Shown in pieces: positions 7,564-47,317 of a stretch of 64,000 bases of DNA. This DNA is from Thelonectria olida (Eukaryota > Ascomycota > Sordariomycetes > Hypocreales > Nectriaceae). Position 1 is the first letter of the stretch. The number at the start of each line of letters is the position of its first letter. A program made the translations under genes and the position numbers. Under the pieces are notes generated by a model. It saw nothing but the letters and a program-made list of their open reading frames with translations, was not told the origin of the DNA and did not search any database. The stretch spans positions 186,001-250,000 of the forward strand of contig JAGPYM010000014.1 of NCBI GenBank assembly GCA_020736575.1. The letters are read 5' to 3'.

Positions 7564-8114
7564 TTTGTTCTTTGTTGGGGTTGATGACAGGTTTGAGTCT
7601 CCAGTGAATTGAAGGGCTTAAAGAGACATTCTTAAGCTAGAGCCTTTTGAAGGTCGAAAGACTTAAATGTATGCAATGTGTGTGGGCGGGTAAAACAAAG
7701 ATGCATGTAGCATAGTCTACTTGGATGGGTCAAGCTTGAACGCTGAGAATGCCATCTCTAAGCCTGTAGCTATGGATCATCTTCCAATTGGTGCCCGCTT
7801 TCGCATTTTATCTGCGGAAATAGTAATCGGATCGAGTTTAGGAATAATAATTCGGGCAGCGCCGACTCTCCAGTGATACGAGTGAAGGGAGCTATCCGCT
7901 TCATAGCAGAGGGGGGTCTCATTATCTCTATCATGACGGGCCAGCAAGCCAACGGCTTCGATCATGCAGTGGACTCAGTCAATCACTTAGTTGTGCGGTT
8001 TCGTCCCAGGTGTCTAAATAAACGTCTCGATTGCTCTCGATTAAACCACAAATGTAGCTTAGAGGAAGCCTAAAGGATCCTTGCAGTCTAAGAGTGAAAT
8101 GCAGCCGTTTTATC
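7564..8114. other. Intergenic, no gene seen
   Basis: Upstream of the NmrA-like gene and downstream of the permease gene. No gene or motif that I can support. Confidence 0.5.
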
Positions 8115-10068: not shown

Positions 10069-11282
10069 TGTGGCCGATTATATTGGATTCTCTGCGTACT
10101 GGGAGCAGAAAGAATTCTCGTGGTTGTGTTGTATGAAGCACCAGTTGACAAGACACACGTAGCGAGTTCGCGGTTCCGAGTCCCTGCCTGGGTTATATGC
10201 TGGAGTTCGGAACGCTAGGGGTCAAGCCACCACCACACCAGATAAACGCACTACCTAGGTGGTCTAAGCAAGCTCTGTCAGTGTTGCAACCGGCGTCACT
10301 GATCTGGGTATCTTGGAAGCCTATCTCCCCCTTGCGCTGTTAGCCGGGGCGGGGGCAGGGACATGGGCGGGGATGCGCTTGTTACCCAGATAGACGATAG
10401 TCAACCGCCAATAGGTGGTTATTGCATGAGAGATGATATCGGAACGAGAAGATATGATATAATCTGTCTATCTCCTGCAAGCAAACATATTTGTTGTGCC
10501 AAGTTGCTATCTTGAATTTGAGGATGAAACGAAGTAAAAGACTTCAATATCTCAGCTTTGCTGTACAGCTTGCACATTCCCCAACTCGGAGTCCAACAAA
10601 TGTGTTGACTGCGAAACGTTCCAAGTTGAACCCTCTGCAACCAACATCACGGCAAGTATCGACAATTCGATTAAACGTAAAATCTCAGCCCCGGTTGTCG
10701 GATTGGCGGCAAGCCCGCATCTCGTGACAGGAACCGCATCAGGTCACGCATTCATCCTCCTCGACTAAGGAATTAATCCACAACCCCGGCGCCAGCAACC
10801 TTGTCCCAGTAGAGATACGGACCTTGCCTAGAGTGCGGGGAAGTGGACCATCCATGGGGCGATGCAGTGTGAATGGATCAATCGAGGAGACCCGTATGGT
10901 AAGCTTTGACAGGCAGATCTGTTGTGGTGTTGCCAGGTGATGCGTTTTTGGCTGGTCGATGCGCATCGAAGGCTCTATCTGACACCACATCGTAACATGG
11001 CCAGGATAAACCGGCTCTGGAGACTCCGGTTATCGGCTGTCTGATTCCCAAATTGTGGTGCAAGATAGTGCGGCGGCATCAAGGCAACCGAGATCAGATT
11101 GGACAGGATTGCTGGCGATTTGATTACAGCTACAACAGAAAGGACACAGAGGATGCGTGGTGTTCAGAGACAAGGCTACGACAACACTCATGAGAATGGA
11201 AACTCCCTTGACATCATTGCAATCGGAGACTGGCGAGATTTTAAAAACGCAAGTTACATATCTTTATCTATCAAGATATCGG
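10069..11282. other. Intergenic, 1.2 kb, permease promoter side
   Basis: Contains the permease promoter (GTTCCG at 10173-10178 and CGGAAC at 10208-10213) and a short GC-rich stretch near 10330-10380. The right half is the 3' flank of the monooxygenase. No gene seen. Confidence 0.5.
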
Positions 11283-12706
11283 TTACCTAACTGCCACTGT
11301 CTTGGGCTGGCCAACCTTTCTACTTTCTGGCTTGTAGTCTCCTCCGGCGGGAAGCGCCAGCTCTTCTATCGTTCCGGGCTTGTAACTCTTAACATCATCA
11401 GCCAAATGGCCAAAATGCTCCTCTGCCTCTTTTTCAATGTCATGTTCAATCACCCACGAGGGTCGTGGAAGGTTGAGAATCTGGGGGTTCTTTTGAAGCT
11501 CCTCACCCTCCCAGTCCACATTGTGATAGCCGTCTCGGATAGTGATGGAGGCCATGTGAGTGACGTGAGAGCGGTTGAATCGGATCCTCTCGAAAACCCG
11601 CAAGCCAAGCGGGACGTCTCCGTTGGCTCTCTTGAGGGCAATAGCAAGTGCCACGCCATCTTCCATAGCCTGAGACCCTCCTTGGGCGGAGGTGGGAAGA
11701 TGACAATGTGCGGCATCTCCAATCAAGGTGATTCGAGCCGAAGGGCTGAGCCACGTCTTGAGAGGGTCTCTCCAAACGAGTTTGTAGTCAACCAAGTTCT
11801 TCTCTGGCGTGGCCTTAACAATCTCTACAAGTCTCTGCTCAAAGCCACCTTCCGCAAGACAAGCCAGGACGTCCTCCTTTTTCCCGGGAAATGACCAAGA
11901 CTCGCCAATATCAGCGGTATCCTTGCAAAATAAAGTCAGCTTACTATTCTCGGCACTTCTGTAGAAGGGTTCCTGCTCACCTTGTGTGTCAAGACCCAGC
12001 CCAAATCTTTGCCCTTGTTCCAGGTGTAGACTATCATGTGAAGATCTTTGGCAATCCACAAGCGAGTGATGTCAATAGTGGGATCGCAAAACTCTTTCAA
12101 GAGGGGATTCTGTTGATGCTCCTCGGTCAGGGTGAAGTATGCGCGGAAGATGGCATAGCCACTGTTGACTTTGTGATCCGGTAATCCTAGAACTTGGGCG
12201 CGGGCAATTGAACGAGGACCGTCTGCTGCAACCACCACATCGGCAGTCAGTGTCTTGCCACTCGCAGTCACGACACCGGGTTTCTCTTGGTCAAGATATT
12301 CCGTGACGCGATCTCCAAACTCGAACTTGACGCCAACTTCCTCGGCATAGTCCAAAACGACTTTATGCATCTGCCCTCTGTGGCCAGCATATTGCTTCCA
12401 GTAGTGATGAGGTTCGAGGATCCAGTCTTCTGCCCAGATGACAGTTCCGTCCGCTTTGCAGTATTGGAAGCCGTCGCCCTGGTTGATGCAAATCTTCATG
12501 AGATCGCGACCAACACGGCCATTGTCCCACTTCTCAATGATTCTTCCACCATTTGGGAAGAAGTCAATAATATCGCCGTAAGCTGAACTCGTGGGATAAG
12601 TCTCCACGATGGTGACATCCATGCCTCGTAGGCGACATTCGATGGCGGCTGTGAGGCCCCCAAAGCCCGCCCCAACAATGAGAACGTGCAGAGAGTTACT
12701 AGTCAT
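11283..12706 (-). CDS. FAD-dependent aromatic monooxygenase (salicylate-hydroxylase-like)
   Basis: Class A flavoprotein monooxygenase of about 455 residues, two exons, intron 11922-11980. The N-terminal FAD-binding GxGxxG is LIVGAGFGGLTAA (residues about 9-21). The DG motif reads VVVAADGPRS (about 165). The GD motif LIGDAAHCHLPTSAQGG, which contacts the FAD ribose, is in exon 2. The ATG at 12704-12706 directly precedes the Rossmann strand. The family hydroxylates, and may decarboxylate, aromatic acids with NAD(P)H and O2. No signal peptide, so cytosolic. It is followed 420 bp upstream on the same strand by an acid-type MFS transporter, with a cupin beyond: a plausible uptake-oxidation set. 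Confidence 0.9.
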
Positions 12707-13126
12707 GGTAGATTTGGCTTAAAGTGGTTGAGCGATGGCCAGGGTGGAAATTGATGTGAGTGAAGTGCTTGACTTTTAGTCGATTGAATGCTCGGGACCT
12801 TACAGAAGATGATATCTTCAAGATCTTGATTGATAATGAGATGAGGCTAAATGACACCCCGTCGATGGACAATCGGAGCTTCTCGCCCGAACGATGATAC
12901 TAAGGACGGATAATACTGCGGGACTTCATTCAGTTGATCCATTGACAACCTCTCGGAACGGGTTCGGAACCGTTCCTTCATTACACCGGATAATAGCATA
13001 CGCTTGGATGAACTTCTTTATTCCTATCGGGTCCATCCAGCATCGTCCAATAACATGTTATTCCTTAGCAGCAAGGATTAATTCATGATTGGTTCAGTTA
13101 CCCCTCAACTCCCCATCTCCCTAGTC
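12707..13126. other. Monooxygenase promoter / MFS 3' flank
   Basis: 420 bp holding the monooxygenase promoter and the strong inverted repeat listed separately. Confidence 0.55.
12955..12976. promoter_or_regulatory. Inverted repeat GGAACGG-N8-CCGTTCC
   Basis: Perfect 7-bp arms (12955-12961 and 12970-12976) around an 8-bp spacer that contains another CGGAAC. It lies 249 bp upstream of the monooxygenase ATG. The CGG/CCG ends fit a Zn2Cys6 dimer site. CGGAAC half-sites also occur in the permease promoter. Confidence 0.5.
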
Positions 13127-14512
13127 TTAGAACTTACTCGTCTTGGCAAACCCCACGCTTATCACACGAACGGCGATGAAGCTAGCCAAGCCAATGGTAT
13201 ACGCGACTCCGACGAAGAGAATGAGGCCGAGGTACTTGTGGTGGGACGCTTGGAGGATCTGGCCGCCGAGAGGGATACCAATCAAGGATCTATCATGCAA
13301 TTCACATCAATAAGCCGTGCATACCGCGAGTTTTGCGGGCGAACGGATGTCCACTTACCCAAAGCTGCCAACACTGTACACGGCCGTAAATGTCTTTCCG
13401 TAGTCCTCTGTCTTGCACAGCTGTCCAATGCACACCGGCACCAGGCTGATGCCACTGCCGCTTCCAAGACCGAAGAGCACAACGAATGCAGTCAGGCCTG
13501 CCGTGTTGTGTCCAAACGGAAGCCACACCGCCAGCACAGACACTAGACAAAGAGTGAGAGCCGCAATCTGGGCATTGAATCGACCCAATTTGTCTCCAAA
13601 CCAACCTGGCAGCCAGCGACCTATCAATGACCCGACGTTGAGCAGCATCACCATCCGATACGCTGTTTCAGTGGACATTCCGTGCGATGTTGCGTAGGAT
13701 GTGATGTAAGTCATCGGGATAAAAAGGCCAAGCTCGATGAAGAGAGCGCCAGTCGCCAGAATAGCCATCCGCGGTGCCATTAAAATGCGAAAGTCTGGCA
13801 AAACGCTCGACTTTGAGCCTTTGCTTGGCGGAAGGCGGCTGCGTAACAGACAGACTCCGACGACAACGAATGGAACCATGATCAAGGCCATTGCTCTCAT
13901 GGCCCAGCCAAAGCCAATCTTGGGAAACAGCGCTCCAAGAATGAGCGGCGAGACAATCCCCCCAACGCTGCCTCCCGAGATGGCCATCCCGGTAGCGAGT
14001 CCTCGACGTCGCAGAAACCAATGCTGAACGGTTCCAATGGCGGATGTAAACAGCATACAAGTGGCCAAGCTGCCGAGCAAGCCAAAGCAAAGGAAGAAAT
14101 GCCAATACTGCTCGCAAAATCCGAGAATGATGTAAGTTGCCAACAAGAGAGCAGCGCCGCACAATGATAGCACTCGAGGGCCCTTGGCGTCGAAGATTGG
14201 GCCCATGGGAAGTCCAGCAAAGAAGCTAAAGAAGTTGTAAAAGCCAAATATCCAGCCAATGTCGCTGGCAGTTTCGTTTTTTAGCTGATGTTGCGAAATC
14301 CAGCTTTGGTAGACTCCGACTGAATTCATCATGGACAGAGCCGCGAAGAAGCAGCAAAAACAGCCAAACAGGGTCAGCCAGGCTCGTTTGCCGCCATCCG
14401 GATACTCGTCGTCGATATCTCTGCTGTGCTCTTGATCTTGCTCTGTACGCTGGCGATTTCCGGGCGTCGTAGCTTGTTGTTCTCCCATTGTCTTGTAATT
14501 TGGCTCTGTCAT
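13127..14512 (-). CDS. MFS transporter, monocarboxylate (MCT/SLC16-like) type
   Basis: About 438 residues, two exons, intron 13290-13358 (GTAAGT donor). The conserved MCT-type start D-x-G-x-x-x-W (YPDGGKRAWLTL) precedes TM1. Twelve hydrophobic segments can be traced; RRRGLATGMAISGGSVGG is the typical TM4-5 loop and GDKLGRFN the second-half loop. The ATG at 14510-14512 (MTEPNYK) is preferred; an ATG at 14488 is possible. Likely proton-coupled uptake or export of an organic acid. Divergent from the cupin gene across 381 bp. Confidence 0.88.
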
Positions 14513-19489: not shown

Positions 19490-21865
19490 TTAAGCCACGG
19501 GGGCTAGGATGATCTGAGTACGCCCTTTGACGTTGACCCTGGTGCTGGCAGTTCCGGCAGCGTCGGCAGTGATGGAGCCCCCAGTGCTCAGAGTATACTC
19601 CTGGCGGGGCACAAGTCGCTCAAAGCCAATCTCGAATGATCCAGCCTCCTTTCCATTGTACAGAACCAGGTCGAGTTTCTTGCCGTCGCTGCTGTAGGCC
19701 TTGGCGACCAAGACCTCCGGGAACGGCGCCTTCTCGAGGAGAGGGCCCTCGAGCGCCTTCTTGGGGGGTCCGTGAAGAGTTGCGTTGGCAAGGTCGCGGG
19801 TCTTGACGAGACGGGCCATCAGGGCAATGACCTGAGAGGTAGCCGAGAGGCCCTTGTTGTAGAGACCGCCGGTCTTGGTGGCCTCGATGGGGAAGTAGAC
19901 GTTGTCCAGTTGATCAAGAGCCTCCTTCCGAACCTTCTCGTCACCAAACTCGGCGGCAGTGGCGGCCAAGAAGGCACGGAGGGGACCGTCGCTGGCTCTG
20001 TAGTTGCCGGGATCCATCTTATCGGCGCCCTTGAGGTCGCGAACCTGCAGTTGCCCCTTGTCATCGTAGGTGATGAATTCCTTGCGGATCATGGCCCAGT
20101 TGCGGTGGGCGAGATGAGGGAGGTAGGCAGTGAGAAGCATGGCGTTGATGCAGTCAGTCAGGGTTCCGCAGAGGCCGGGCAGCTAAGTGAGTCAATTGTT
20201 AGAAGGAATCCAGGCAGTTAATAGGCAATTCAGGGGAGGTATCTCCTTACAGTAAGACCAGTGAACTCGCTGCGGATAGGGAGGATGCGGCCGTCACACT
20301 CGGTGAACTCTTCCTCGAGGGATCGTTCAAAGCGGTTTCGCAGCTTGAGACCGTAGTCGCGACCAAGAATTCTATCCGAAATGACAAGTCCAGCCATGCC
20401 AGTCAAGCTAAAGGGGACGTTAGATTGCCAACTCAAAAGTTTGTGCAGTGATGAGTACATACTTGCAGAGGGAGTAAGTCCAGTTGGGCTCGCAGGGGTA
20501 AAGCGTGTAGGGGTTCTCAGTCATGTTGTTGTTAAGCGCGTCGGCGAGTCCTTCGTAGTTTGTCTTGTAGTGCTTTCCATCATCAATAACAAATTCCAAG
20601 GAGTTCTTCTGGTGGTACTGTCGGTCGCCGGAAGCCTGCTCGTACAAGCCGATAGCAGCACTCAAGTAGCCAGTGACCATCTAGATTTCTGGTTAGAACC
20701 TCAGCACACTATACTGTCTAAAGCGATACTCACGATGTTGTCTTTCTTGATGGGGTCCCAGTCGCTGAAGGTGAATCTTCCGAAGATGGACTCCCACTTC
20801 CAGTATCTAAGACGGGTTAATATTATGCTCCATTGGCTTCGAAAAAATCTGTACATACGACATGATGCGCTTCTGCAAGCTCTTCTCAATTGAATTCTGC
20901 GAGGCCTTGGACAGGTAACCATGGAAGTTGGGGGCATAATGGCACTGGTAGAGACTCAGAGCATCAACGACTCCGTACAGTTGGTAGCGAACAGCACCAG
21001 TCTGGAACTGGTCAATAACATCAAAGTAGCTAAAGTCACTGCGGGGGCTGAGACCGCGCTCGAGCATATGCTGGACGTGGCGGAGCGTCTCAAGGGAGAG
21101 TTCTCGAGACTCGGGAGAAGGAATTGGGGCAGCGTTGGCTTGTTGCTCGCGGACGGCATCAACCAGGTACTTGTTTCGCTCCTGAGCCTTGGAGTATCCG
21201 GCGGCGTTGAGGGAACGGGCATTACTCATCAGCCAGAAGATGCCGCTGTAGCAGAAAATGGCCCAGAACCAAGCGCTCGATTCGAAGAGGGTGTCCTTTG
21301 CCATGATGCCGGCGCCAACACTAGAACCGACCCAGAGAGCAATGGGGAAGAAGATTCCGCCCATGGCAAACCATGCGAAAACAGTGACGGGAATTAAGAC
21401 GACAGTCAATAGGAATGCTCCGAGGGAAGTCAGTGTGGCGACAGCAGTGAAGCCAGCTCCAGGGAACAAGAAACCGAGAGCGGCAGCACGGTAAGCTGTG
21501 TTGTTGAGGTGGTAGAAGGACCAAAGACCTCCACCTGAGAGGGCCAGGTACTGGTACAAGGTGCGTCTCTGATGATACTTCTTGATGAGGCCTCGACCGG
21601 CATGGGGAGGGATCAAGACATCTGGACGAAGTCAACTTTTTGATCATAGAAAAGATTGTCATTCCTTGACTAAGGGTACTATACCTTCAACGGTCCATGG
21701 TCCCCAGCCGAAGTCGCCCACCGGCTCAGTGTCTTTCAGAGGCCTGGGCTCCTCAGCTTCCACCCGAGCATAGCCATTCATGCCAATTCCCTTGGTCTTA
21801 GCCGGGGGAGGGTGATGGTGTTGGTGATCATCCACGAGGGAGTGGATCCCATTCTGTGTCGGCAT
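19490..21865 (-). CDS. Membrane-anchored linalool dehydratase/isomerase (Ldi)-domain protein
   Basis: About 700 residues in six exons. The ATG at 21863-21865 (MPTQNGIHS) is used; the codon eight positions upstream is TTG. A soluble N-terminus of about 75 residues is followed by three to four TM helices (about 85-190) and then an alpha-barrel domain. DPIKKDNIM (near residue 330), GLYEQASGDRQY and CEPNWTYSLCN (near 400) align by memory with the bacterial enzyme of Castellaniella (DPIxKxNIM, CEP...QCN), keeping both active-site cysteines. The Gly-His just after NIM in that enzyme is Gly-Tyr here. Bacterial Ldi interconverts myrcene, linalool and geraniol. The membrane part and the His to Tyr change mean the substrate may differ. 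Divergent from an alcohol dehydrogenase. Confidence 0.8.
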
Positions 21866-22093
21866 AACTTTTGTAAGCTTGATGTTCAATGTTAGCTCGA
21901 GTCAGTCATTTGGAGGCGGTTTGATCATACTGTGACCGACATGGTTGCAACTTGTCTCTGTTCAATTGATGATGGCACTTGTTTCAACTCAAGAGCGTGA
22001 TGGAGTGTGTTTGAGTCTTAATCAGTATTCCTTCGAGATTCCACGGTCATATATGCCCCGTGACAGCTCGCAGGATCATGATTCAAATGCAAG

Positions 22094-22100
22094 CGGTCCG
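22094..22100 (+). promoter_or_regulatory. Cluster motif CGGTCCG
   Basis: Embedded in the 9-bp palindrome GCGGTCCGC. It lies 229 bp upstream of the Ldi-like ATG and about 394 bp upstream of the dehydrogenase. Confidence 0.6.
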
Positions 22101-22353
22101 CCGTCTTGCCGGCCCTACCGACGGAAGCTTTTTCCTCTCCGCAGTCTATCCCCCACGGGGTATCCTGGTTACCAAGTGCGGGGAATGTTGTATCTCTAGA
22201 GTTTTTTTTTGATCGACTCAGTTGCTTCCAAGCTGCACTTTGGTCTCCTGAACTCTTCCATTGACGCGGGTCGGGGACGGTCGGAGGCATTCGGGGAGGA
22301 CGTGGCGACGCGGGGCGTAGTAGGACCGTGTCGGGAGTGAACGTATCTAAAGG

Positions 22354-22360
22354 CGGACCG
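22354..22360 (-). promoter_or_regulatory. Cluster motif CGGTCCG (complement strand)
   Basis: CGGACCG on the + strand, about 134 bp upstream of the alcohol dehydrogenase ATG, an expected operator distance. Confidence 0.6.
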
Positions 22361-22493
22361 TTGTTGTAGCAATTGAGTGCCCAAGGAGATATTTTTACTC
22401 TAAAAACTGTCCACGAAGGCGCAGTTGGCTGAATTGCGCAACCTAATACCGATAACACCACATTCTTCATCTAAGATAAACACGGTCATCACA

Positions 22494-23987
22494 ATGGCAG
22501 CCAAGCTCAGCCGCGCTCATGCAATCGTATCTCACCCACCCGTGGATGGAGAAAGGCAGTGGGTTCTAGAAGAGGTCTCCATTGGAAAACCTGGTGACAG
22601 TGAAGCCATTGTTGAGATTGTTGCATCTGGAATATGTCATACCGACCTTGGTTGCGGAACCGCTCCAGATGGAACACCCGGATTTCCAGTCCCCCCATAC
22701 CCACGCATTCTCGGACACGAGGGTAAATAATCCAGCGATTCAGAGACTTTTTGCATCGGTTCTAACAAGATACAGGCGCCGGCTACGTCAAGGCTGTCGG
22801 ATCCAAGGTCACCAAGGTGCAGCCTGGAGACGCCGTCCTGCTCTCCTTCGCCTTTTGCACACAGTGTCATAATTGTCAGTTTGGAGCGCCAGGCTACTGT
22901 CACAAATTTTCCGAGCTCAATTTTACCGGGAACAAGAGCGGTTTCACGGTCAAAGAGAGATCAGGCCAGCAAATCGGCGGTTCCTTTTTTGGCCAGTCCA
23001 GCTTTGCTCGGTTGACCCGTGTCCAAGAAACGTCCATGGTCAAGGTCAATGGGTTGGTGAAGAATAAGGACGACCTCAAGTATCTAGCGCCTCTTGGATG
23101 CGGCATCCAGGCAAGCTTTCCCGCTGCAACCTACGAGATATACCTCTGACACATTTTCAGACTGGAGCGGGGACAGTTACCGAGCTTGCAGGTGCCAAAC
23201 CGGATGACAAGGTTGCTATAATCGGTCTCGGTGGTGTTGGCCTTGCCGCCATTATGGTAAGAAGTGCCTTTCTTTAGTCTTAGCCCATGACTGCAATGAA
23301 CGAAGCAGACTAACAGTATGGCAGGCTGCAAAACTAAAGGGTTGCCGTACCATCATTGGTATTGATCGCGTGCCTTCGCGACTCGAACTGGCCAAGAACC
23401 TTGGAGCTACACATGCTGTCAACACGACAACAATATCGGGAAGCTTGATAGATGAAATCCGCAAGCTGACTGGTGGCCCTGGAAGCACCATCACCATTGA
23501 CGCCACAGGAGTCGTGCCTCTTATTCAGCAGGGTCTCGAGTTTACTGCCAACCAAGGCAAGATGATCCTCCTGGGAGTTGCTCCGATGGACGCTGGTTTG
23601 GAACTGCAAGTTGTTCCGTACATGGTTGTACGTGGGAGTGCTTGAACATGGCAAAAACATTAAGGTACTGACTTCGTGCTAGACTGGCAAGCAGCTCATG
23701 GGTAGCATGGAGGGCGGTGTCTATCCCGAGGATGTAAGATGGGCCAACCTCCATGTATTAGATGCGTGGCTTATTTGACATTATAGTACATCCCTCAGAT
23801 GATTCGGTGGTATCAATCCGGCAAGTTTCCAATCGACAAGCTGATCAAGTTCTATCCGGTAACACATCTACCTGTACCCAAAGAGTTTGGCCAATACTGA
23901 CTAAATGATAAAAAGGTCGAGGATTATCAACAGGCCATCAAGGACATGGAAGAGGGACATACAATCAAGCCGATTCTGATTTGGTAG
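22494..23987 (+). CDS. Zinc-dependent aryl/allyl-type alcohol dehydrogenase (MDR family)
   Basis: Seven exons, about 380 residues, ATG at 22494. Catalytic zinc ligands: the Cys of GICHTD (about 46) and the His of GHEGAGYV after intron 1. Structural zinc: the cysteine array CTQCHNCQFGAPGYC. Cofactor motif GLGGVGLAAI in the middle exon, continuing with IGIDRVPSRLELAK, whose Asp points to NAD. This pattern matches benzyl-alcohol/geraniol-dehydrogenase-type MDR enzymes. It should oxidise a primary allylic or aromatic alcohol to the aldehyde, the substrate class of the convergent aldehyde dehydrogenase. No signal peptide. The exon ends before 23157, 23259 and 23630 each need a GT-AG intron to hold the frame. 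Confidence 0.9.
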
Positions 23988-24171
23988 TACAGCAAGATCT
24001 AGTTTAAAAGCCGTTGATCAACATCGAATATCATTTTGTTTTTCACAGCATGTAGTATCTTACATTGTTGAATCTTTGGTAACGTGTGCCTAAGGCACTT
24101 GAAGCTCCTCGTCTCTGCTTGCACAACTTGAAGTCATATAACTTGATGACCAATAGGGTGCTGCCGTTGAG

Positions 24172-24178
24172 CGGTCCG
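24172..24178 (+). promoter_or_regulatory. Cluster motif CGGTCCG, first of a tandem pair
   Basis: In the convergent intergenic region, about 185 bp past the alcohol dehydrogenase stop codon. Confidence 0.5.
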
Positions 24179-24184
24179 AACAGG

Positions 24185-24191
24185 CGGTCCG
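24185..24191 (+). promoter_or_regulatory. Cluster motif CGGTCCG, second of a tandem pair
   Basis: Forms the full palindrome GCGGTCCGC and starts 13 bp after the first copy. Confidence 0.5.
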
Positions 24192-24490
24192 CTAGTAATT
24201 CATGATTGTGATTGGTTCACCTACTAGCATTAAGACCGTTGATTGCGCATGGAATGAAGATCCCGCTAAGCAATACATGGAAAAGACCCGACGTCCATTA
24301 TTTACCCTTACCCCAGCTGACTCATTGAGGGAGAGTCATTACATCAGACTGTGACACGCGTAGTAGCCAGGTATTGCAGCTCTCAGTAAATCACAAAATA
24401 TGAGAACTTTGGTCGTAACGAGTTGAGTGCATCAAAGGATAAGTCAATTGATCATCCTTGTCGTACCAGGACGAACAGTAATCTTGCTTA

Positions 24491-26248
24491 TTAGTTTACA
24501 ATGTCCTTGTTCAAGAACAAAGTCTGCACGTTGCAGAAGCCCTTCAGTCCATTCGCGCCCCATTCTGTTCCGATTCCACTCTCCTTATGGCCTCCAAATG
24601 GAGCCATGGGCGACAGGTCAAAGTGCGTGTTAACCCAAACGGTTCCAGCTTGAATCTCTCTCGCGACTCTTCCGGCCTTCTTCAAATCGTTGCACCAAAC
24701 CGAGGCGCCCAGACCCATTGTGGTGTTGTTTGCTCGAGCAAGGACCTCCTCCTCGCTCTTCCAGGATAGAAGTGGTACGATGGGGCCTGGTAAATTGAAT
24801 TAGCCTTTGTTATCTGTGATGGAGAGAAGAGATTATCCATACCAAAAGGCTCCTCGACGACGATGCGGGAATCCTCCGCAGGGTTGTCAATGATGGTGGG
24901 AGTGATGAAGTAGCCCGACGAGGGCTCAATCTTGCCCCCAACTGCTACCTTCCATCCTTGCTTTTCAATATCGTCGAAGAAGGTCTTGACACGTTCGTAC
25001 TGCATCGAGTTTTGTAGAGGGCCGTGGCTGATTCCCTCCTTTGAGCCATCTCCAAGCACGTAGGATTTGACGTGCTTGACCAAAGAGTCTCTGAACTGCT
25101 CATAGATCGATTCGTGAACGTAGATGCGCTTCAGATTCAGGCAGATCTATTGTTTGGTTGGCTCAACGTTTTCTCAGTACGATATACGGAATAATTACGC
25201 ACCTGGCCAGAGTTTAAGAAGGCGAAGAAGGCAACCTTTTCCGCAACCTTGTCAACATCAACGTCTGGGAAGACAATTGCTGGGTCGTTTCCCCCACTAT
25301 TTCAGGATTAATATTGTGATTCTTCTGAGAACAATCGCTAGGACCACTCACAGCTCCAAAGTCACACGCTTCAGTGTCTTGCTAGCACTCTGTAGAACGA
25401 GCTTGCCGGTCGTCGTCGAACCAGTGAAGCTGATCTTGTCGATACCAGGATGGCTGGTGAGCCACGGTCCGAGGTTGTCATCTCCGCTGAGAGACTGCAC
25501 AACGCCAGGGGGGAAGAATTGCTGCGCCAGCTCGACGAGCTTTAAGCCGCAATAAGGAGTAAAGGGCCTAAACATCATTGGTAGTCAGTCCTGTTCGGAA
25601 ATAAGCCTTAACATTAACTTACGAAGGCTTGACGATGATGACATTACCCGTCAACAGAGCAGGGGCAATCTTTCCCGTGGCCAAAAGCAGAGGAAAGTTC
25701 CACGGAATGATAGCACCAACTACTCCTATAGGAGTGTATCGTGTGACAACCTGGCGTTTCTCGTTCTCCTCAATGACGTCTTCGGGCAGACTAATATTGG
25801 CCATGCCCCGCATCCATTCGATCGCTGCCTCGGTTTCGCCTTCGGCTTGGGGAATCTGGCGCAGTCAACACTAAGCAGATGCACCATGTTTGTGTGGATT
25901 ACATGAGAAACTTACAGGCTTGCCCTGCTCCGAGGTCAGCAAATTGCGGAAATCATCTCGCACTTGGGCAACAGCATCGGCATACGCCAGGACGGCGCTG
26001 CGTCGTTCCTCGTATGGCACCTTCGACCAGGTGCTGAAGGCCTTCTTGCCGGCTGCAATGGCCCGGTCGAGATCATCCTTCGTACACAGCGGCACCGAAG
26101 CCTTTGGCTTCAAGTTGGCGGGATTGACTCCATGGCGGGATTCTTTAGTTGGTGAGCTCTTCCCATCGATGATCTGGACAAAGCCGTCCTCAAAGTTGAG
26201 CGAGTCGGGTCGTTGATGGCCGTTGACTACCGCTGTCTTGGAAGCCAT
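24491..26248 (-). CDS. Aldehyde dehydrogenase (NAD(P)+-dependent, ALDH superfamily)
   Basis: Six exons, roughly 480 residues, ATG at 26246-26248 ([10 protein letters not shown]). Exon 2 has [21 protein letters not shown], the cofactor-fold signature. Exon 3 has FTGSTTTGK and ends in the glutamate motif VTLELGGND, completed across an intron. The catalytic Cys lies in FLNSGQICL. EEPFGPIVP and [11 protein letters not shown] complete the family pattern. The residues after the Cys (LNLKRIYV) are typical of fungal ALDHs. It oxidises an aldehyde to the acid. Convergent with the alcohol dehydrogenase; two cluster motifs lie within 250 bp of its start. Together they would turn an alcohol into a carboxylate for the CoA ligase. 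Confidence 0.92.
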
Positions 26249-26423
26249 ATCGATGGTGTCAAAATGGATAAAGCTGAGGATTTGGGGGCGAGAGAAAACG
26301 GTTGCGGATAGTTGCTGATACTGTAGCCAAGGCAAGCAAAGATCCTCAATGAAGCATAATATGTAAATTCTAAAAAGGCGGGGTAATGGACTCTGGGCTA
26401 TGACAACTTCAGTTAACCCTCAC

Positions 26424-26430
26424 CGGTCCG
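26424..26430 (+). promoter_or_regulatory. Cluster motif CGGTCCG
   Basis: 176 bp upstream of the aldehyde dehydrogenase ATG. Confidence 0.6.
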
Positions 26431-26493
26431 ATGCCGTGCAACAACGCTTCGGATCATTGTGAATTCCGCTGCATGTCTCACGCCCGCGGCGTA

Positions 26494-26500
26494 CGGACCG
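26494..26500 (-). promoter_or_regulatory. Cluster motif CGGTCCG (complement strand)
   Basis: 246 bp upstream of the aldehyde dehydrogenase ATG, 70 bp from the previous copy. Confidence 0.6.
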
Positions 26501-26954
26501 TCTTGTAATAGGATGCCGGGAGGGAAATGCGGGGAAGAGGGCGGGCAAAACTGTTGACCCGTGGTTGCATCTCCGCGTCGGATGCGGGGAGGAAGAGAAA
26601 CGAGGTGGTCCGGGGAGTCAGGATAGGATCTCGGCATCTGGGTTAATGGGCCATCAGGTATGTCGTGAACGTGGTGGTGAGAGGAGATGGGACAAGTGCT
26701 GACGCCACACGAGAGAGGCTTGCTACCCTATCTCTTGCGCCGATGAAGAGAGGGAGCAATAACTAGGACAAAAGTTGAACGGAATCTATTGACACTCTCT
26801 ATTTTCAAGTAATTACCGATGTGTACCTCTGGGCACTTTATTGTGATCTTTAGCACGGTTGACTTCTTACAGACTTGGAAATTTTCTACTTTGATCTGAT
26901 AAATAGGCTGCTTTGTGATGAGGCAAAGTTGAGGGCTATTGCATGCACATGATT

Positions 26955-26961
26955 CGGACCG
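26955..26961 (-). promoter_or_regulatory. Cluster motif CGGTCCG (complement strand)
   Basis: In the distal part of the same intergenic region, about 0.7 kb from the start codon and 208 bp past the transporter stop. It could be a chance copy. Confidence 0.4.
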
Positions 26962-27168
26962 ACATGAACATTGTGCGGCTAAGAACGCGTACGATATTTT
27001 GCACCAAAACGTTCTATCGTTTACCATCCATTGTTCGTCCAGCCTCTCCGTTTGCCATTGTCACTGACATTAGAACTACTACACTGTTTTTCCGCTCACG
27101 CCTAACCGCCTGACCCTGATTGATAACTTTTGTTACCAGATGCAACAAAAGTCAGTCTTGTTTCAGAG

Positions 27169-28248
27169 TTAAACCAAATTGGCCTTCTCACTTGCCCCCT
27201 TGACGACACTAGACAGGTCTCCGACGGGAAGCTGGATGGGGAAGTCAATAGTAGCGAACAAGATGGATAGTAGAATGTACCATCCGGCAAAGCAAGTCGT
27301 GAAGAGGCATGCCCCAGCACCCTGTATAAATCCCCATGTCAGCGTTTCTTGGGCATGAGGCGGCAAGATACGTACCACAAAGAGCCTGTTAACAGTTTTG
27401 GCATTCCCGGTGAAGTCCTCTGCTTGTAACCAAAATGCTGCAGTCAACATGGCAAAAGTTGGAACCAGACTGAAGAAGATGTACACAAAAACAATATTCG
27501 TTCGGAGGGCGCAAACGAGGTAGACAATCGCGAGGATGCCCATGGTAAGGAGCCAAAAGCCTGAGAGAAACCAATAGTCAGATCCACCCTGTATAGAAAT
27601 TGGTACATAGTTTGTCTTACCTAAACTCGCGTTAAATCCTGGGGTTGTGAGGCCTACAGATGCGGATGTAGCATCAGGAGGAGCGTAGAATGCGTATGCT
27701 CCGAAGTTAGGGCTAAGAACTCCGCCAAAGGAGAACCAGAAGCAGCCAAAACTGCAGAAGACGGTGGACGGGAAGGTATTTCCAAGGACCCATTCTAAGA
27801 TTCCGCTTAGGAACATTAGAATACCTCCCATAAAGAAGTACACGGGGCTGTAAGGACGCTGGATTAGCATCAGAGGGGAATCATAGGGATGGGATGAGCG
27901 AACATGATTGCGGCGTTGAAGTTCCCGGCTCCTCTCCAGCCCATCAGAGCGCAAGATAGGGGCATTAAAGCCAAAAGGAACCCAACCAACGCCCTATCAA
28001 ATATTAGCAAACACATTCATTGTATCGTTAATAATTAGAAGTTCTTACATAGGGGTCGGGTTGCCAAATGTCTTCCTGAGGTCTCCTTTCACCTGGTTTG
28101 GCGGAGACAGGTAGAGCTTTTCGAACAGCTCCGAGCTGATAGTGACGCTCCCGGCCGTGCGGATCTTGTCGAGGGTGTTGACACGACCCTTTTCGGGGTC
28201 GGAGAGGTCATTCTGGGTGCTGATGTCTTCGTAGTCAGGAGAAGCCAT
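27169..28248 (-). CDS. GPR1/FUN34/YaaH-family acetate/organic-acid transporter
   Basis: ATG at 28246-28248 (MASPDYEDI); about four introns. The family signature NPxPxxLxxF (NPTPMALVGF) is rebuilt across intron 1. GWRGAG, FMGGILMFLSGILEWVLGNTFP and the six-helix pattern follow. About 275-300 residues. One internal donor (near 27905, GTTCGC) is weak, so that boundary is uncertain. Members carry acetate or related acids, or ammonium, across the plasma membrane. Two cluster motifs sit 168 and 377 bp upstream of the ATG, tying it to the dehydrogenases. A role in handling acetate or acid intermediates from terpenoid or side-chain oxidation is inference. Confidence 0.88.
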
Positions 28249-28415
28249 TGTTGGTGATGCTCAAAGATGCCTTCGTTGCTGTGAGTTGATGAGTGATGTA
28301 GGCCTCAAAATAAGCTTGTCTTGGCTGCAGAGCTCCCACTCTTAACACATTTATCACTTATATCGCCCATTGAACGCGTGTCGATCTTAGTCCAATCGAT
28401 GTTAGGGTAATCGGG

Positions 28416-28422
28416 CGGACCG
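28416..28422 (-). promoter_or_regulatory. Cluster motif CGGTCCG (complement strand)
   Basis: 168 bp upstream of the transporter ATG. Confidence 0.6.
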
Positions 28423-28624
28423 GACGTCTTCGTGTCCAAACACCCTACCGCGAAGCACCCAGCCCCAAGTCAACCGACTCCTTCGTTCCCAACAAGTCAT
28501 GACCGTCATAGCGACGAGCCTCGCAAAGGTTAGACTGGGTCGATCGAACCTACTGACAAAAATCTTTGTGCGGAGAGTGCGGAGAGTCAGGGATGCTATG
28601 CTTCCCCGGACTGATGGCACCAAG

Positions 28625-28631
28625 CGGTCCG
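28625..28631 (+). promoter_or_regulatory. Cluster motif CGGTCCG
   Basis: 377 bp upstream of the transporter ATG. The flank AAGCGGTCCG matches the copies at 22094 and 34166. Confidence 0.55.
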
Positions 28632-29016
28632 AGATCAAAACGCGGGGGAAGCCAGCGGGAACCACTTCAGGAGGCACGGCACCGACTCAGGAACCTTGTC
28701 ATGTTGACTCCTTCTCATAACAAGCTTAGTGCCATGATGATTCGACTTGTAAAAACAGACTGCCTGAGTCATTACTCCGGCCATAATTTCATAAAGACAG
28801 TGGTCGGTCGAGTTCCGTGAGAGAACCCCGCATCTACTATCATTTCTTGACCAAGGTGTGTTACGCATCTCATTTGTGCAATCTCTGATTTTCAGGTGTA
28901 TCTGCACTTCATCTTGTATTAAAGGCTTTTTGCTAATTGACTATGCAAGGATGAAAATTTGAATCCCTAGTATTAATGAACATGCCATGGCCGATCCGTA
29001 CCTCCCACGATGTCTC

Positions 29017-31434
29017 TTACAACGAAATGAAAAACCCGGGACTTCTGCCGTTGGCGTCGGGGCCCAAAGAAGAGTAATCGCCATCATTGGTAAAGTCCAT
29101 GTCAAAGTCTACTTGTTCCGGGCCAGGCACTTCCGATGCAAAGGACCCAAGCAATGAGTCTGCTGAGGTGGGATTACTACACATGGTGTCGTAGTTGACC
29201 ATGGACCAGAATATAGCTTCTAATTTCGAATCTATCTTCGATCCTCTCTGAGGGTCCAAGATCTTGGCCAATTCGTCACCCTGAGCATCAAATAGTAACA
29301 GTTGAATGTGCTGTAGTTTTGTCGCTTTCGTTAGCAAACGGTAGGCGACATGTGAGTAGGAATAAGGAAAATCTAATACATACCATTTTCGACGCATGCT
29401 CCCAAGCCTGTCCCATTCTCTCTAATATCTGGAAGGCCTGTTGACTGCCCTTGCGTAAATCTGCGCCAGGGTCCTGATGCGCGTGGACAGCCAATAACAG
29501 GATACTCCCAGCCACAGAGGTCGCATAGACATAGAATGAGGATTGCACATGACAGCCAGCAGCGGCAGCGCTATCCAGGAGTTCCGCGATTTTGAGAGCA
29601 TGACTTTTGCTTGTCTGCTGAGCACCAGCCCAGAAGTTCGGAGGCATCCTGCATCTCGACTTCTGCAGGCGCAACTGCAGCAGGAAGGGGTGATTCAAGA
29701 GACAGTGACATAGGTGAAATATTGTGCGTGCAAAGATGACATGTGAGATATCTTGGTGGTCGAGCGATCCATCGGGCTTCTTGTATCTGTCCACGATTTC
29801 GTTGATTGGTGATGTCTGTGGTTCGAGGTGATGTTCGACGAGGAGCAAGTCTGAGTTAAGAGAGGTGAATTCGGACTTGGAGTCCCACGGTAAGATGTCG
29901 TCTGTCTCGCATTGGTGCAAGACATGGCGCGCGCATCGCCCCAACGTAGACGCAGCGAGGATTGTGAGCGCAAACGTCCCCGTGACACCTTCCGAATCAG
30001 AACCCCAGTTAAACAATTCGTGCAAGGTCATCGTCTTCTTCGTTGAGCCCGTGCGGAATGTCTGCTGATCGCACGGGAGCTGCACATGACAGTCGTTGTC
30101 GGATATAGCGGGTGGACGGCCTTGCCCGCAAGATACCAGCTTGTCGAGCAGGTATATCGACCAAAAGGCTCGTCGGCGCTCTTCTTGCTCAATGGCAGAT
30201 AGTGTGCTCTTCGGTTCGGTCTGGAGCTGTAGGTCTTGCGCAATGCGAACGGCGAGGCCGATTTTCAGCCATCCTGAACTTGTGCGACCAGCTATTGCAC
30301 CAAAGTTAGCATTGCGGCAGAGCAACTGCTTAGAGCAACGCACCAGTAAAGTCAACGATAGCAAGGATGTTTGTAGCTTGCGCAACATGCAGGTTTGGGC
30401 AGTTCTCTGTCGTCATATGATCATTGAGGACAGATAACCAGGCTTCTCGAGCATAAGTTTCGATGGCCTCATGGATGGCTCCTCTGAAATATTCATTGTT
30501 CGAGAAGCGCAGGGCCGAGGCCAATACGGCAAAGACCAAACATTTTGGGAGTAAGCCGTAGGCTAGTCTGTCGCGAAAGCTCGCCTCGTGGAAATAAGAA
30601 TAGGGCTGGTTGTGTGAGTGAAGGAAGTAGGCGTCGATGAGAGATTGCATCACTGAGTGTGGGGGGAGCGTATTGAAGGGTCTGTCAGAGAAGTTTGGTT
30701 AGAATAAAGAAGCTATACGCGACTTTGATTGCCGTAGTTACGTACGACATGTTGGAACCTTCGGAGTCCGAGGTCTGTGGCATAGATGAGGAGAATCGAC
30801 GTTGGGGCCGACAGGGCTCTGATGGTAGTTGGCTTGAAAGCTGGTCTTCAAAGCCAAATGACGACGAGGCATCTTGGAGGAATGGCTGATGCTCACTTTG
30901 GATTTGGCTGGCGCAAGTCTCAATGTCAGACACTTTGTAACGAATGCAGCGGAAATGTGTCAAACCTGGCATTTTGGCCACTTAGTCGCGCGAGCTGCGA
31001 CTCAATTGTATTGATTCGCTTCAGCAGATCCGGCTGGGAGGTGGTCAGCGACGGATGTTCCCGAGCAGGGTGCCATCCTCACATTGATCGCGCCGAGTTT
31101 GGACGACGATAGGGAAGAATTATTCTGTGATCCAGTGCCACCAACGGTCGAGACGGTGGCAGAGTACGGCTCATATTGGCAGACGCGGTCGACTCGACGG
31201 CAGTTGATGCATCTCGGGCGGTCCCCGGAGCACTTCGTCTTGCGATGGCTGCGAAGGGAAACGTTAGCCGAAGTCTGCATTTTCTTTTGAAGCCATCAAT
31301 GGTCGCAAAACCCACCGGCAATTCGTGCAGGCCTGTCGGATGCGACGAATATTACTCCTCGATTGCCCGTGGTGATGTTGCCAGGGCTCGCCCGCTGGTT
31401 CGAGGGGGCGCATCGAAGTCATCATGTTGGACAT
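29017..31434 (-). CDS. Zn2Cys6 transcription factor, candidate regulator of the Ldi cluster
   Basis: Multi-exon regulator, ATG at 31432-31434 (MSNMMTSMRP); the in-frame codon further upstream is TTG. The zinc cluster is split by intron 1. CTNC plus RHRKTKCSGDRPRCINCRRVDRVC gives CX2CX6CX6CX2CX6C. A second intron joins SKLGAIN to PDLLKRINTIESQLARL, the short coiled-coil linker. The fungal_trans domain includes GRTSSGWLKIGLAVRIAQDL and ERRRAFWSIYLLDKLVSCGQGRPP. The final exon is acidic (FDMDFTNDGDY). It lies between the transporter and CoA ligase genes of the segment rich in CGGTCCG, so it is the obvious candidate to bind that motif; its own upstream region has no copy. Confidence 0.9.
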
Positions 31435-32005
31435 GGCAATGAGCTTGGACAATCGAACTTGGGGGTGAAGCTGCTCCTTGCTTTGCTTCGGCAGTCAACG
31501 TAGGGGGGAAGATTACGCCAGTTCGTGCGGGGTTCGTCCAGGTCACGAGCTCGTCCTTGGCTCTGGCTCCTTGCGAGTCCGGGGTCTGGGGGAGTTGTTC
31601 GCCTCGTCAAGGAGTCTGGGGATGTGAGTGCGGGGGAGCATGGCAAACATGGCCGAACTTGCAAGGATTAGGGGTATAGGGGCGCAAGCATTTCGTGTGA
31701 TTCGTCACCTTTCCCGACCCGAGCTGGACCATGCAAAGTCTATTGCGGCATCGTCTTGCTTGGGCTGTTTCTCAAGCTCGGGGAGCTTCCGATGGAGATC
31801 CTTCGGACTGATGGCTGAGCTCCGGCGTGGTTATGAGCTGACTTGTGAGCAGAACGAGACCAAATCTGAGTTAGTACGACATTCCGAGGCATATACCATC
31901 TTACATAATACTGGAAGAACAAGATACAGGCACGCGGAGTGTGACGAAGTCTTTACTATTAAACAAACATGGCCCTCTCGATTGCCAGACAAGCCAATTG
32001 ACACT
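31435..32005. other. Regulator promoter / ligase 3' flank
   Basis: 571 bp without a copy of the cluster motif. A + strand reading frame runs across it into the ligase 3' end, but I regard that as antisense noise. Confidence 0.5.
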
Positions 32006-33981
32006 TCAAAGCTTTGCCATCCTCCGCTTGACAAGAGAATTGCCAAGAGCCCGTACCAAATGCTTCTGATACTTCCCACTCCCAGTCTTTGGAATATCCG
32101 AACCAACGTCCGCATCACCAACCCAGAAGACGTACTTGGGCTCCTTGATGCGATCCAGTTTCTGCGAAATCCAGGCGCGCACTTGCTCATCCGAGAGCCT
32201 GGTTGAGGAATCGTTCGCCGCTGCTCTGAGAAAACATGCCACGACTTCGCCGTACTTCTTGTCCTCTAGTCCAACGACGCAACATTCGCCTACAGCAGGG
32301 TTCTTAAGGAGTCGGTCCTCAATCTCACCCGGTGAAATATTCTCGCCCCCTATAACATATCAGTCGTCCAGTGTCTCGTTTAATAAAGCGGCGCATGTGC
32401 GACTTACCGCGAATAATCAAGTCCTTGATTCTTCCAGTGATGTGTCCGTATCCCTCTGCATCAACGAACCCTTCATCCCCAGTATGCATCCAGACCACCC
32501 CGTTTTCATCTTGCTTCATCACCTCGCTTGTTTTGTCGTCGTCATCCCAGTACCCTTTCTGCAACGCAAATCCAGACGTGCAAATTTCGCCTCGCGCGCC
32601 AACAGGCACAGGCTGACCATTGCCGTCAATGACCTTGGCTCCGGTGTGCGGGAGCACTCTACCGATGCTGTTGAACATTTTATCCGTCGAATCGTCAAGA
32701 GACGTAATGAAAGTGACTGGGCTGGTCTCAGTCATCCCGTAAGCAATAAGCATCCCTGGAATATTCATCTTCTTCCGGATGCTCTCCATCACAACAGGAG
32801 AGACAGGCGCGCCCGCGATCAAGCCGGTGCGGACTGTGGTAAGCTGCTGCTTGGTCTTTTCGAGAGCCTCCAGTTCAGCGAGGAACATTGTGGGTACCCC
32901 AAGAAGTGCCGTCGCCTTGAGCCGGAATACGGACTCGAGAGTCTTGTGAGGATTGAAGCTGTCCGAAGGGAACACGATGGAGCTCCCATGGCAAAAAGCC
33001 GCCAGGAAGCCCATAACTAACCCGAAACAATGGAAAAGAGGCGGCGGGCAGCATATTACGTCGTTTTCAGTCAAACGCATTGCTCTTCCCACAAATCTAC
33101 CATCGTTGAGTAGGTTCCTGTGAAAATGGTTAGCATAGTCTGGAGTCGAGGCCACAATGAGTCGATACCTATGAGTCAGGGATGCCGCCTTGGGAAACCC
33201 GGTGGTTCCTAGCATGTTGAGTCAGTTTTAGTCGGCGAGCGAAGGATTGTGTTTGTGTCACAAGGTACCTGAGGTAAACTGAAGGTTCAATACGTCAGAG
33301 TTCTCAACCTTTTGCTCTGCCTCTTCTAGTATCGCCTCATTGATCGAAGTCAACGAGTCGCCAGAGATGAAGGACTCGTAGGCTTGCATCCTATCTGCCT
33401 TCTCTCTGGTGATTTCCTTGCCTAGGAAAACAAGATGACGAAATTGACGGCTCGACCGGAGCAGTGAGTCGGCATGCCCTCTGAGAGACCTGGATCCTAC
33501 ATTCCGGGCGATGAATAGCACCTTGCATTCTGAAAAACGTGAGTTTATTACAATGACAAAGTTGAAGAGGGGAAGAGCACTTACTGACTCTAGAAATGGC
33601 CTTTTGGAGCTCCCCGGGAGAAAAGGTAGTATTCAGCACCACAACCGGGCATCCAATCCGAGCACCGCCCAAGAAGATCTCAACGTATTCGTAGCAGTTG
33701 CCTGCCATAATGGCCACGCAATCACCGCGCTTCAACCCAGCACCAAGCAGAGACTTGGCTACCAGTTTGCTTCGATCTGCCAGATCTTGGTATGTACGTC
33801 GGGCTGACTGCCATGGCACGATGACGGCATCGTGATTTCTATATCGGGATACCTGTTCCTGGATGAAAGCCCCGAGAGTCGTCTCCAGCAGTGGAGGGTC
33901 TGAGGGTCCAAAAACGACCGAGAGACGTCGCCCCGATTGCTCAAAGGGAATGTCTGTTGGTGGAGCTTGCGGTACTTCCAT
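32006..33981 (-). CDS. AMP-binding acyl-CoA ligase (medium-chain/terpenoid-acid type)
   Basis: Five exons, about 560 residues, ATG at 33979-33981 (MEVPQAPP); the upstream in-frame GTG is not used. The adenylate-forming P-loop is split by an intron: NLQFTSG joins TTGFPKAASLTHR. A5-like motif AYGMTETSPV, then [39 protein letters not shown] and the C-terminal PKTGSGKYQK lysine motif are all intact. This is the layout of medium-chain and branched acyl-CoA synthetases. In this cluster it would activate the acid made by the aldehyde dehydrogenase. No signal or peroxisomal SKL tail; the C-terminus is RRMAKL, and AKL is a plausible PTS1-like tripeptide. A cluster motif lies 185 bp upstream. Confidence 0.91.
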
Positions 33982-34165
33982 CGTTGTAGGTCCAATTAGT
34001 GGAAGAAACACGAGATGACGACTTTCTCTAACGATGAGATCAAAAGGAATTCATAAGTAGACAAGAAGGCCAGACGATAAATGGGATAGAGTACGTATCT
34101 TCATCTTTTTAATCGATTACTTCTCCAATGGCTTTCCCATGACCAAGCCGTTACAAGGCTTCAAG

Positions 34166-34172
34166 CGGTCCG
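34166..34172 (+). promoter_or_regulatory. Cluster motif CGGTCCG
   Basis: Full palindrome GCGGTCCGC, 185 bp upstream of the CoA ligase ATG. Confidence 0.6.
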
Positions 34173-34389
34173 CTCTGAGATTGTCAGTCCCTCCAGTGCC
34201 TCCACCAAGGGCTCCCCTCCCAGCCTGCTTTACAGCGACCACAATATGAGTTGGAACTAAAAACAGGACGATTTTGGCTGTCAAACTCGTCTAAAATTCA
34301 CCCATTAGCTCTGTGAATCAATATCATGGCCGTTCCTGAGCAATCCCTCTGGTCGAATGTGCGGACACCTCCTTGCGGTTAGTCCTGAG

Positions 34390-34396
34390 CGGTCCG
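34390..34396 (+). promoter_or_regulatory. Cluster motif CGGTCCG
   Basis: Full palindrome GCGGTCCGC. It lies 409 bp from the ligase and 301 bp from the copper ATPase start, so it could serve either. Confidence 0.5.
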
Positions 34397-34431
34397 CCCT
34401 ACGGAACGAGCGGAGGGCCGCCTGTCCGCAT

Positions 34432-34445
34432 CCCCGCGCGCGGGG
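34432..34445. repeat. Perfect 14-bp palindrome CCCCGCGCGCGGGG
   Basis: Reads identically on both strands. GCGGGG on each strand fits the CreA carbon-repressor consensus (SYGGRG) back to back. Confidence 0.5.
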
Positions 34446-34696
34446 TTTGGGCGGGCTGATCATTTCCTGCAGCGGAATGACGAGACGGAGCGGATGGCTT
34501 CCAACGTTGGCTGGATTGACCCCTCCTGCAGGTGCTGTCGCCCCAGTTCTACCGATGTTTGATGAGATGGCCATTCCGAGACCGCTTGCAAGATGCTCCA
34601 ACATCCTTGTATAATACAGCTACAACTGGAGACCTCCATATGGGCCTTTTTTGACCCTCACATTTGACCGGGAAATGTACCGACCTCACTATCATC

Positions 34697-46387: not shown

Positions 46388-46615
46388 TGTGAGATGGGGA
46401 CAGAAGAATTTCTGTAAACTCCTGGAGCTCTGGTATGACTGCGATTGGGAGATATACGATATGGCACAGCATGATATTAGGAGTCCACAGTCGACTTTAA
46501 TACTCTTCAGGGTCATGGCAACTGACCAGTTCCCCAGAATCTTCCTCCCTTACCCCGCGTCGCTCCGCACAAGACTAGTCAGGAGTCCAGACCCCAAATC
46601 TTCCCCAGATCTAGT

Positions 46616-46634
46616 CATCGGAGAGGCTCCGATG
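46616..46634. promoter_or_regulatory. Inverted repeat CATCGGAG-AGG-CTCCGATG
   Basis: Perfect 8-bp arms, 229 bp upstream of the transporter ATG. Its core, TCGGA-N5-TCCGA, differs from the palindromes at 43107 and 47304 by one spacer base. Confidence 0.5.
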
Positions 46635-47303: not shown

Positions 47304-47317
47304 TCGGATGCATCCGA
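47304..47317. promoter_or_regulatory. 14-bp palindrome TCGGATGCATCCGA (second copy)
   Basis: Identical to 43107-43120, 217 bp upstream of the PrpF-type ATG. Confidence 0.7.

Follow-up and report, generated by a model that had tools for sequence, protein, structure and literature searches.

A six-gene cluster of Thelonectria olida with a Lis-type protein and a shared CGGWCCG palindrome

In a 64,000-nucleotide stretch of the Thelonectria olida genome (hereafter the window), six genes at positions 19490-33981 encode an Ldi-domain protein, an alcohol dehydrogenase (ADH), an aldehyde dehydrogenase (ALDH), an acetate-type transporter, a Zn2Cys6 regulator and an acyl-CoA ligase. These genes form one unit beyond chance, because the palindrome CGGWCCG is enriched there (12 copies vs 1.07 expected), and the cluster looks like a dedicated regulon. 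We propose, with a probability of about one half, that it may be a regulon devoted to the breakdown of tertiary allylic terpenoid alcohols, in which the Ldi-domain protein would act as an isomerase of the type of Lis from Thauera linaloolentis. The cluster had been noticed in a first-pass annotation of this DNA and is confirmed here as real; the cluster-specific, operator-like motif CGGWCCG is added by the present analysis.

The CGGWCCG palindrome and the gene models

CGGWCCG was first spotted by eye while the promoters were being read. The control for this was a scan that took each of the 64 triplets as an inverted or a direct repeat with spacings of 0-12 (1664 counts, with direct repeats counted twice). 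The top rank was taken by CGG-N1-CCG with P = 6e-10, followed by a runner-up at 6e-4. The window holds 16 copies, compared with a mean of 6.0 and a maximum of 12 in 50 first-order Markov sequences. The expectation for the cluster region (19490-34654, 15.2 kb) comes from 3708 copies in the whole genome, which comprises 52.5 Mb in 165 contigs, bears the marks of a fungus in its introns and Zn2Cys6 proteins, and is the sole fungal genome examined; the Poisson P of the excess is 1.8e-9. Eleven of the twelve copies are intergenic, within 4.06 kb of cluster intergenic DNA, and the remaining one lies in the ALDH coding sequence. The form GCGGWCCGC occurs four times in the cluster vs 0.065 expected (226 genome-wide), and CAAGCGGTCCG three times vs 0.004 expected (15 genome-wide), although the P value of the latter is optimistic because this form was picked after the sites had been seen.

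The promoters of all five structural genes (Lis-type, ADH, ALDH, transporter and ligase) contain CGGWCCG, and the interval upstream of the regulator gene contains none. A chance neighbourhood of unrelated genes was rejected since the five structural genes have the motif in common. The Zn2Cys6 protein of the cluster is a candidate for binding CGGWCCG. The two sites at 24172-24191 are 13 bp apart where no promoter is expected, and their role is unexplained. Elsewhere in the genome, contig C99 carries two copies of CAAGCGGTCCG 12 kb apart; judged by eye, one is inside a Zn2Cys6-like frame and the other upstream of a carotenoid-oxygenase-like frame (L006, 4385-6716).

Placing the introns by hand gave uninterrupted, complete reading frames for all six genes, which are intact and intron-bearing (Table 1). 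The second intron of the ADH gene, 23111-23160, is GC-AG, the only such intron in the six models. The first-pass annotation had read the gene identities from motifs, and Pfam matches on all six spliced models bear them out: PF18566 (9e-82) for the Ldi-domain protein, PF00107 (4e-27) and PF08240 (2e-20) for the ADH, PF00171 (2e-147) for the ALDH, PF01184 (8e-32) for the transporter, PF04082 (Fungal_trans, 2e-31) and PF00172 (3e-7) for the regulator, and PF00501 (6e-84) and PF13193 (7e-14) for the ligase. The extent of 14.5 kb that it had given also holds, with the stop codon of the Ldi-domain gene ending at 19490 and the start codon of the ligase gene beginning at 33981.

Table 1. Genes of the cluster and intergenic CGGWCCG sites, in window positions
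Feature	Position	Strand	Remarks
Lis-type (PF18566) gene	19490..21865	-	6 exons, 694 aa; spliced model and Pfam, PDB Ldi match, Lis comparison
Lis-type gene exons	21685-21865, 20859-21621, 20734-20806, 20463-20680, 20251-20407, 19490-20182	-	
Lis-type protein layout			hydrophobic block about residues 100-195; Ldi domain 272-574; then C-terminal extension
Zinc-dependent benzyl/geraniol-type ADH	22494..23987	+	7 exons, 385 aa
ALDH	24491..26248	-	6 exons, 491 aa
GPR1/FUN34/YaaH (acetate-type) transporter	27169..28248	-	4 exons, 304 aa
Zn2Cys6 regulator	29017..31434	-	7 exons, 684 aa
AMP-forming acyl-CoA ligase	32006..33981	-	5 exons, 583 aa, C-terminus AKL
CGGWCCG site	22094..22100		divergent promoter of Lis-type gene and ADH
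CGGWCCG site	22354..22360		divergent promoter of Lis-type gene and ADH
CGGWCCG pair (24172, 24185)	24172..24191		between ADH and ALDH 3' ends
Two CGGWCCG sites (26424, 26494)	26424..26500		upstream of ALDH
CGGWCCG site	26955..26961		between ALDH start and transporter 3' end
CGGWCCG site	28416..28422		upstream of transporter
CGGWCCG site	28625..28631		upstream of transporter
CGGWCCG site	34166..34172		upstream of ligase
CGGWCCG site	34390..34396		upstream of ligase; also faces heavy-metal-associated-domain gene

Relation of the Ldi-domain protein to Lis and Ldi

Among solved structures, Ldi was the sole match below E 0.1 for the fungal protein (4.5e-11). Many fungal proteins probably carry the Ldi label in databases. 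Bacterial relatives were collected as four loci from one genome-contig scan and by two family searches, which found the Ldi family in 6 of 395 genomes around a Sterolibacteriaceae metagenome-assembled genome and in 35 of 401 genomes of one family around Mycolicibacterium. The latter count shows that the Ldi family extends well beyond the two enzymes of a 2018 review (PMC6013536), which, like a 2019 paper (PMC6600392), calls Lis the only known relative of Ldi. The fungal protein scores highest with L102 (369 bits), L103 (360) and L022 (346) among the resulting 50 bacterial proteins, and the Castellaniella protein of the same set reaches 44 bits.

The reading frame of L102, taken from an internal Met, has 644 aa, a mass of 71.8 kDa and a grand average of hydropathy (GRAVY) of -0.115 for the whole chain, 0.940 for residues 1-139 and -0.406 beyond them. 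The same length, mass and three GRAVY values were published for Lis of Thauera linaloolentis (PMC4791888), and from this agreement the L102 frame is recognised as Lis. Its computed pI is 6.72 vs 6.06 printed, a difference that we put down to method, and the genome has 4.2 Mb vs 4.4 Mb printed (PMC4847356), perhaps as another assembly. A 545-aa frame is upstream of lis in L102. In the closely related lis locus L103, the matching frame of 541 aa hits PF01039, and some 7.7 kb separate lis from an ADH of 366 aa. For the published locus, the lengths are 545 aa for AtuC and 366 aa for GeoA, with 7617 bp between lis and geoA (PMC4847356).

In a two-sequence comparison, the fungal protein and Lis share 35% identity over 604 columns (E 5e-117), with fungal residues 100-692 of 694 aligned to 48-642 of 644, so that the match takes in the C-terminal extension and some of the N-terminal block. 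Fungal residues 85-200 have a GRAVY of 1.03 and this block aligns with that of Lis, but four transmembrane helices cannot be told apart by simple hydropathy. Of the 50 bacterial proteins, 48 have the pattern C-x-P-x6-C, the others being L101 and the partial L106. Fungal C402 and C411 correspond to Ldi C170 and C179, which are Cys in all 17 aligned rows and the alteration of which inactivates Ldi (PMC6600392; active-site residues are numbered as in PMC12455561 and PMC6600392). The Castellaniella-type features, His128, Tyr44 and the C48-C101 disulfide, are absent from the fungal protein: the His128 column has His only in Ldi-type rows, Trp in Lis and Tyr in the fungal protein; C48 and C101 are not Cys in Lis or the fungal protein; and the latter has no Tyr at 44. 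The N-terminal columns shift between alignments, which affects the Asp38 column.

A tree was made from 49 rows, namely 47 of the 50 bacterial proteins (the partial L019 and L106 and the duplicate L026 were dropped), the fungal protein and 5hlr. The fungal protein joins the Lis clade together with L086 (support 94/82, just under the starred threshold), a position that is not sure because its branch is long and its letter make-up was flagged. The L086 locus (6761-13319, genome G687) has two Lis-type genes about 2.5 kb apart. Castellaniella Ldi was rejected as the best model, given 44 vs 369 bits and the alignment and tree that favour the Lis type. Of the likeness to bacterial linalool/geraniol catabolism claimed in the first-pass annotation, the general claim is upheld, and its particular model, Castellaniella Ldi-GeoA, gives way to Thauera linaloolentis Lis-GeoA, which has the best match of the 50 and the alignment on its side. 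A weak Ldi-like stretch of 28.5 bits with one internal stop (intron or decay) was also seen on contig C36 (13733-14002; L004, L017), and the 9.9 kb read around it contain no CGGWCCG.

The nearest solved relatives of the ADH are 5tnx and benzyl alcohol dehydrogenase 1f8f, and of eight ADHs encoded near bacterial Ldi-family genes it matches the geoA-like one of L103 best (41.6% over 363). The ALDH has 50-54% identity to the ALDHs of L064-L066 and 34% to one near Castellaniella ldi. The ligase has at most 30% identity over long alignments, and one short piece of 37% in L102. NCBIfam listed no family for the Ldi-domain protein, and among the best 25 each for ADH, ALDH and ligase all families are under their own cut-offs, the nearest to the ligase being a fatty-acid CoA ligase subfamily.

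Gene linkage was examined at 47 bacterial loci (L018-L021, L064-L106), about 10 kb around each Ldi-family gene, with 17 windows placed 200 kb off 17 of the loci as controls. An ADH of at least 200 bits is found in 8 of the 47, any ALDH match in 14 and any ligase match in 12; all three occur together in four, L021 (Castellaniella), L064, L065 and L066. The 17 control windows have none of this ADH/ALDH/ligase linkage, except for one ADH of 95 bits. At L066 (8989-14076), the Ldi-family gene (CEPNCTFQIC) is near a haem-containing dehydratase (PF13816, which we take to be the aldoxime dehydratase family), a carbon-nitrogen hydrolase and an AraC-type regulator.

Proposed pathway and its alternatives

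A membrane-anchored, cysteine-dependent Lis-type isomerase would convert linalool to geraniol by moving its hydroxyl from C3 to C1, through a cysteine-supported acid/base isomerisation in a reduced membrane enzyme, with two oxidations and the CoA ligation drawing the reaction forward; such isomerisation is known for Ldi and Lis (PMC6600392, PMC4791888). The GeoA-like ADH would convert geraniol to geranial, and the ALDH would make geranic acid from it. The ligase, which is probably peroxisomal, would then form geranyl-CoA, which would be carboxylated and then degraded by genes outside the cluster. The C-terminal AKL of the ligase is presumably a PTS1-like peroxisomal signal. The Zn2Cys6 protein would activate the five structural genes via the CGGWCCG sites. 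The most likely route thus appears to run from linalool through geraniol, geranial and geranate to geranyl-CoA, where we infer the substrate, the direction of the reaction, the pairing of protein and DNA, the peroxisomal step and the downstream route from sequence.

Known bacterial systems resemble this arrangement in part. Lis of Thauera linaloolentis 47Lol (EC 5.4.4.4; PMC4791888, PMC4847356) has, like the fungal protein, an N-terminal hydrophobic block and a CEPNW motif with both cysteines, and no disulfide cap. Its locus, for which geoAB and atu genes are known, joins lis to atuCFE (PMC4847356), all of them absent from the fungal cluster, and the fungal gene differs in bearing introns and adjoining a Zn2Cys6 gene. 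Castellaniella defragrans, with Ldi, geoA, geoB and geoC, shares the Pfam family and the order of the chemistry with the fungal cluster, and its ligase GeoC is next but one to geoA (PMC4109377); its Ldi is periplasmic (PMC6600392), has 371 aa in 5hlr and gives about 45 bits to the fungal protein. The first steps of the Pseudomonas Atu/Liu pathway, from alcohol to acid to CoA ester to carboxylation (PMC4847356), are ordered as in the fungal proposal, whereas the cluster lacks atuC/F/E/A. PF07287 (AtuA) has 22 matches elsewhere in the genome, read as seven clear gene places and two weak ones, and none on the contig of the cluster. Besides a likely acetyl-CoA carboxylase in the genome, contig C111 has two carboxyltransferase genes of the methylcrotonyl-CoA/geranyl-CoA carboxylase (MCC/GCC) type, which are candidates for the carboxylation of geranyl-CoA.

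Several results weigh against the proposed linalool route. Around the 12 copies of CAAGCGGTCCG outside the window (stretches L005-L016) there is no second site cluster, each stretch having at most two CGGWCCG sites, and the gene cluster holds no carboxylase gene for geranyl-CoA. The fungal protein matches the Ldi structure more strongly than Lis itself does (4.4e-5), its tree branch has the weaknesses given above, and 35% identity would not fix the substrate. The Lis reference is not firm either: enrichment and mass spectrometry led to its assignment and carry the link from gene to activity, because neither the whole nor a truncated recombinant protein was active in E. coli (PMC4791888). Of the 47 bacterial loci, 39 have no ADH reaching 200 bits, three of the four full-partner loci (L064-L066) carry a different Ldi subfamily, and an ADH/ALDH/ligase neighbourhood need not mean terpenes, because the gene of L066, the one of these three that was scanned, adjoins the dehydratase and the hydrolase. 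The ALDH and the ligase reach no cut-off among their best 25 NCBIfam families, and their closest relatives (54% and 30%) have no known activity on geranial or geranate.

The same enzymes might act on another chain length, an unlikely but serious candidate. In the C5 form, 2-methyl-3-buten-2-ol would pass through prenol, prenal and 3-methylcrotonate to 3-methylcrotonyl-CoA and leucine breakdown; in the C15 form, the substrate would be nerolidol/farnesol. The order of functions suits any 3-methyl tertiary allylic alcohol, and the two MCC/GCC-type genes also speak for this reading, whose C5 route needs only leucine breakdown and no special carboxylase. Bacteria degrade tert-amyl alcohol by way of 2-methyl-3-buten-2-ol, and a prenal dehydrogenase is known (from titles cited in PMC7176365). 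However, the closest characterised relative, Lis, was identified with linalool/geraniol, and the acetate-type transporter suits the acetate split off by AtuA slightly better than the C5 route, which is a weak argument. We regard as improbable that the cluster serves catabolism or detoxification of aromatic or unrelated alcohols, with the Ldi-fold protein performing another dehydration or isomerisation, such as 1-arylallyl to cinnamyl-type alcohols. The solved relatives of the ADH and the neighbours of the L066 gene point that way, as does the Tyr in place of His128, which is not disqualifying for linalool because Lis has Trp there; the tree, moreover, puts the fungal protein with Lis, apart from the L064-L066 subfamily.

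A reverse isomerase, turning geraniol into linalool for detoxification or volatile release while the oxidative genes serve separately, would agree with the assay of Lis, which ran in that direction, the one thermodynamically favoured in vitro (PMC4791888). The motif common to ADH, ALDH and ligase points instead to a pull towards the acid and CoA ester, and we consider this reading very improbable. A part in a secondary-metabolite pathway is hardly credible. Cluster-specific Zn2Cys6 regulators are common in secondary-metabolite clusters, and an FAD-binding-3 frame and a major facilitator superfamily (MFS) transporter are on the left side, but no terpene synthase, polyketide synthase, nonribosomal peptide synthetase or cytochrome P450 (P450) is found in the cluster or in the 20 of 29 outside frames (at least 170 aa) scanned.

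Returning to the linalool route, we tentatively put at somewhat less than an even chance that the cluster is a eukaryotic linalool-isomerase catabolon, by which the fungus could draw carbon from linalool or a different tertiary allylic volatile of plants. The entry step would be a 3,1-hydroxyl shift that needs no oxygen, in place of hydroxylation by a P450, and a single dedicated regulator would control steps in the membrane, cytosol and peroxisome. If so, fungi would have, in a co-regulated Lis-type cluster, an oxygen-independent way into linalool, a common plant scent alcohol, and a eukaryotic enzyme for the linalool-geraniol shift, recombinant bacterial Lis having been inactive in E. coli. 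For fungal monoterpene transformation, laccases and P450s are named in a review (PMC4097962). The first-pass annotation knew of no described fungal cluster of this kind, and the literature searched likewise gave no description of a fungal Ldi or Lis cluster; in its excerpt, a yeast paper (PMC7789178) has an annotated geraniol isomerase in a nerol pathway figure, citing the Lis paper, with no cluster and no enzyme test.

Flanking genes

To the left of the cluster, a gene for a beta-helix protein accompanies the FAD-binding-3 frame and the MFS transporter, and to the right is a gene whose product begins with a heavy-metal-associated domain. Rfam at gathering scores gave no matches over the window. 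Further along, a single 1167-aa frame at 49231-52731 (+) has a metallophosphatase match first and SbcC/SMC-type ATPase matches after it, and looks like a fused SbcD-SbcC, which is unexpected for a fungus. A sugar transporter, a PrpF-family protein and an aconitase-type protein at 44725-58191 may represent a second small metabolic cluster.

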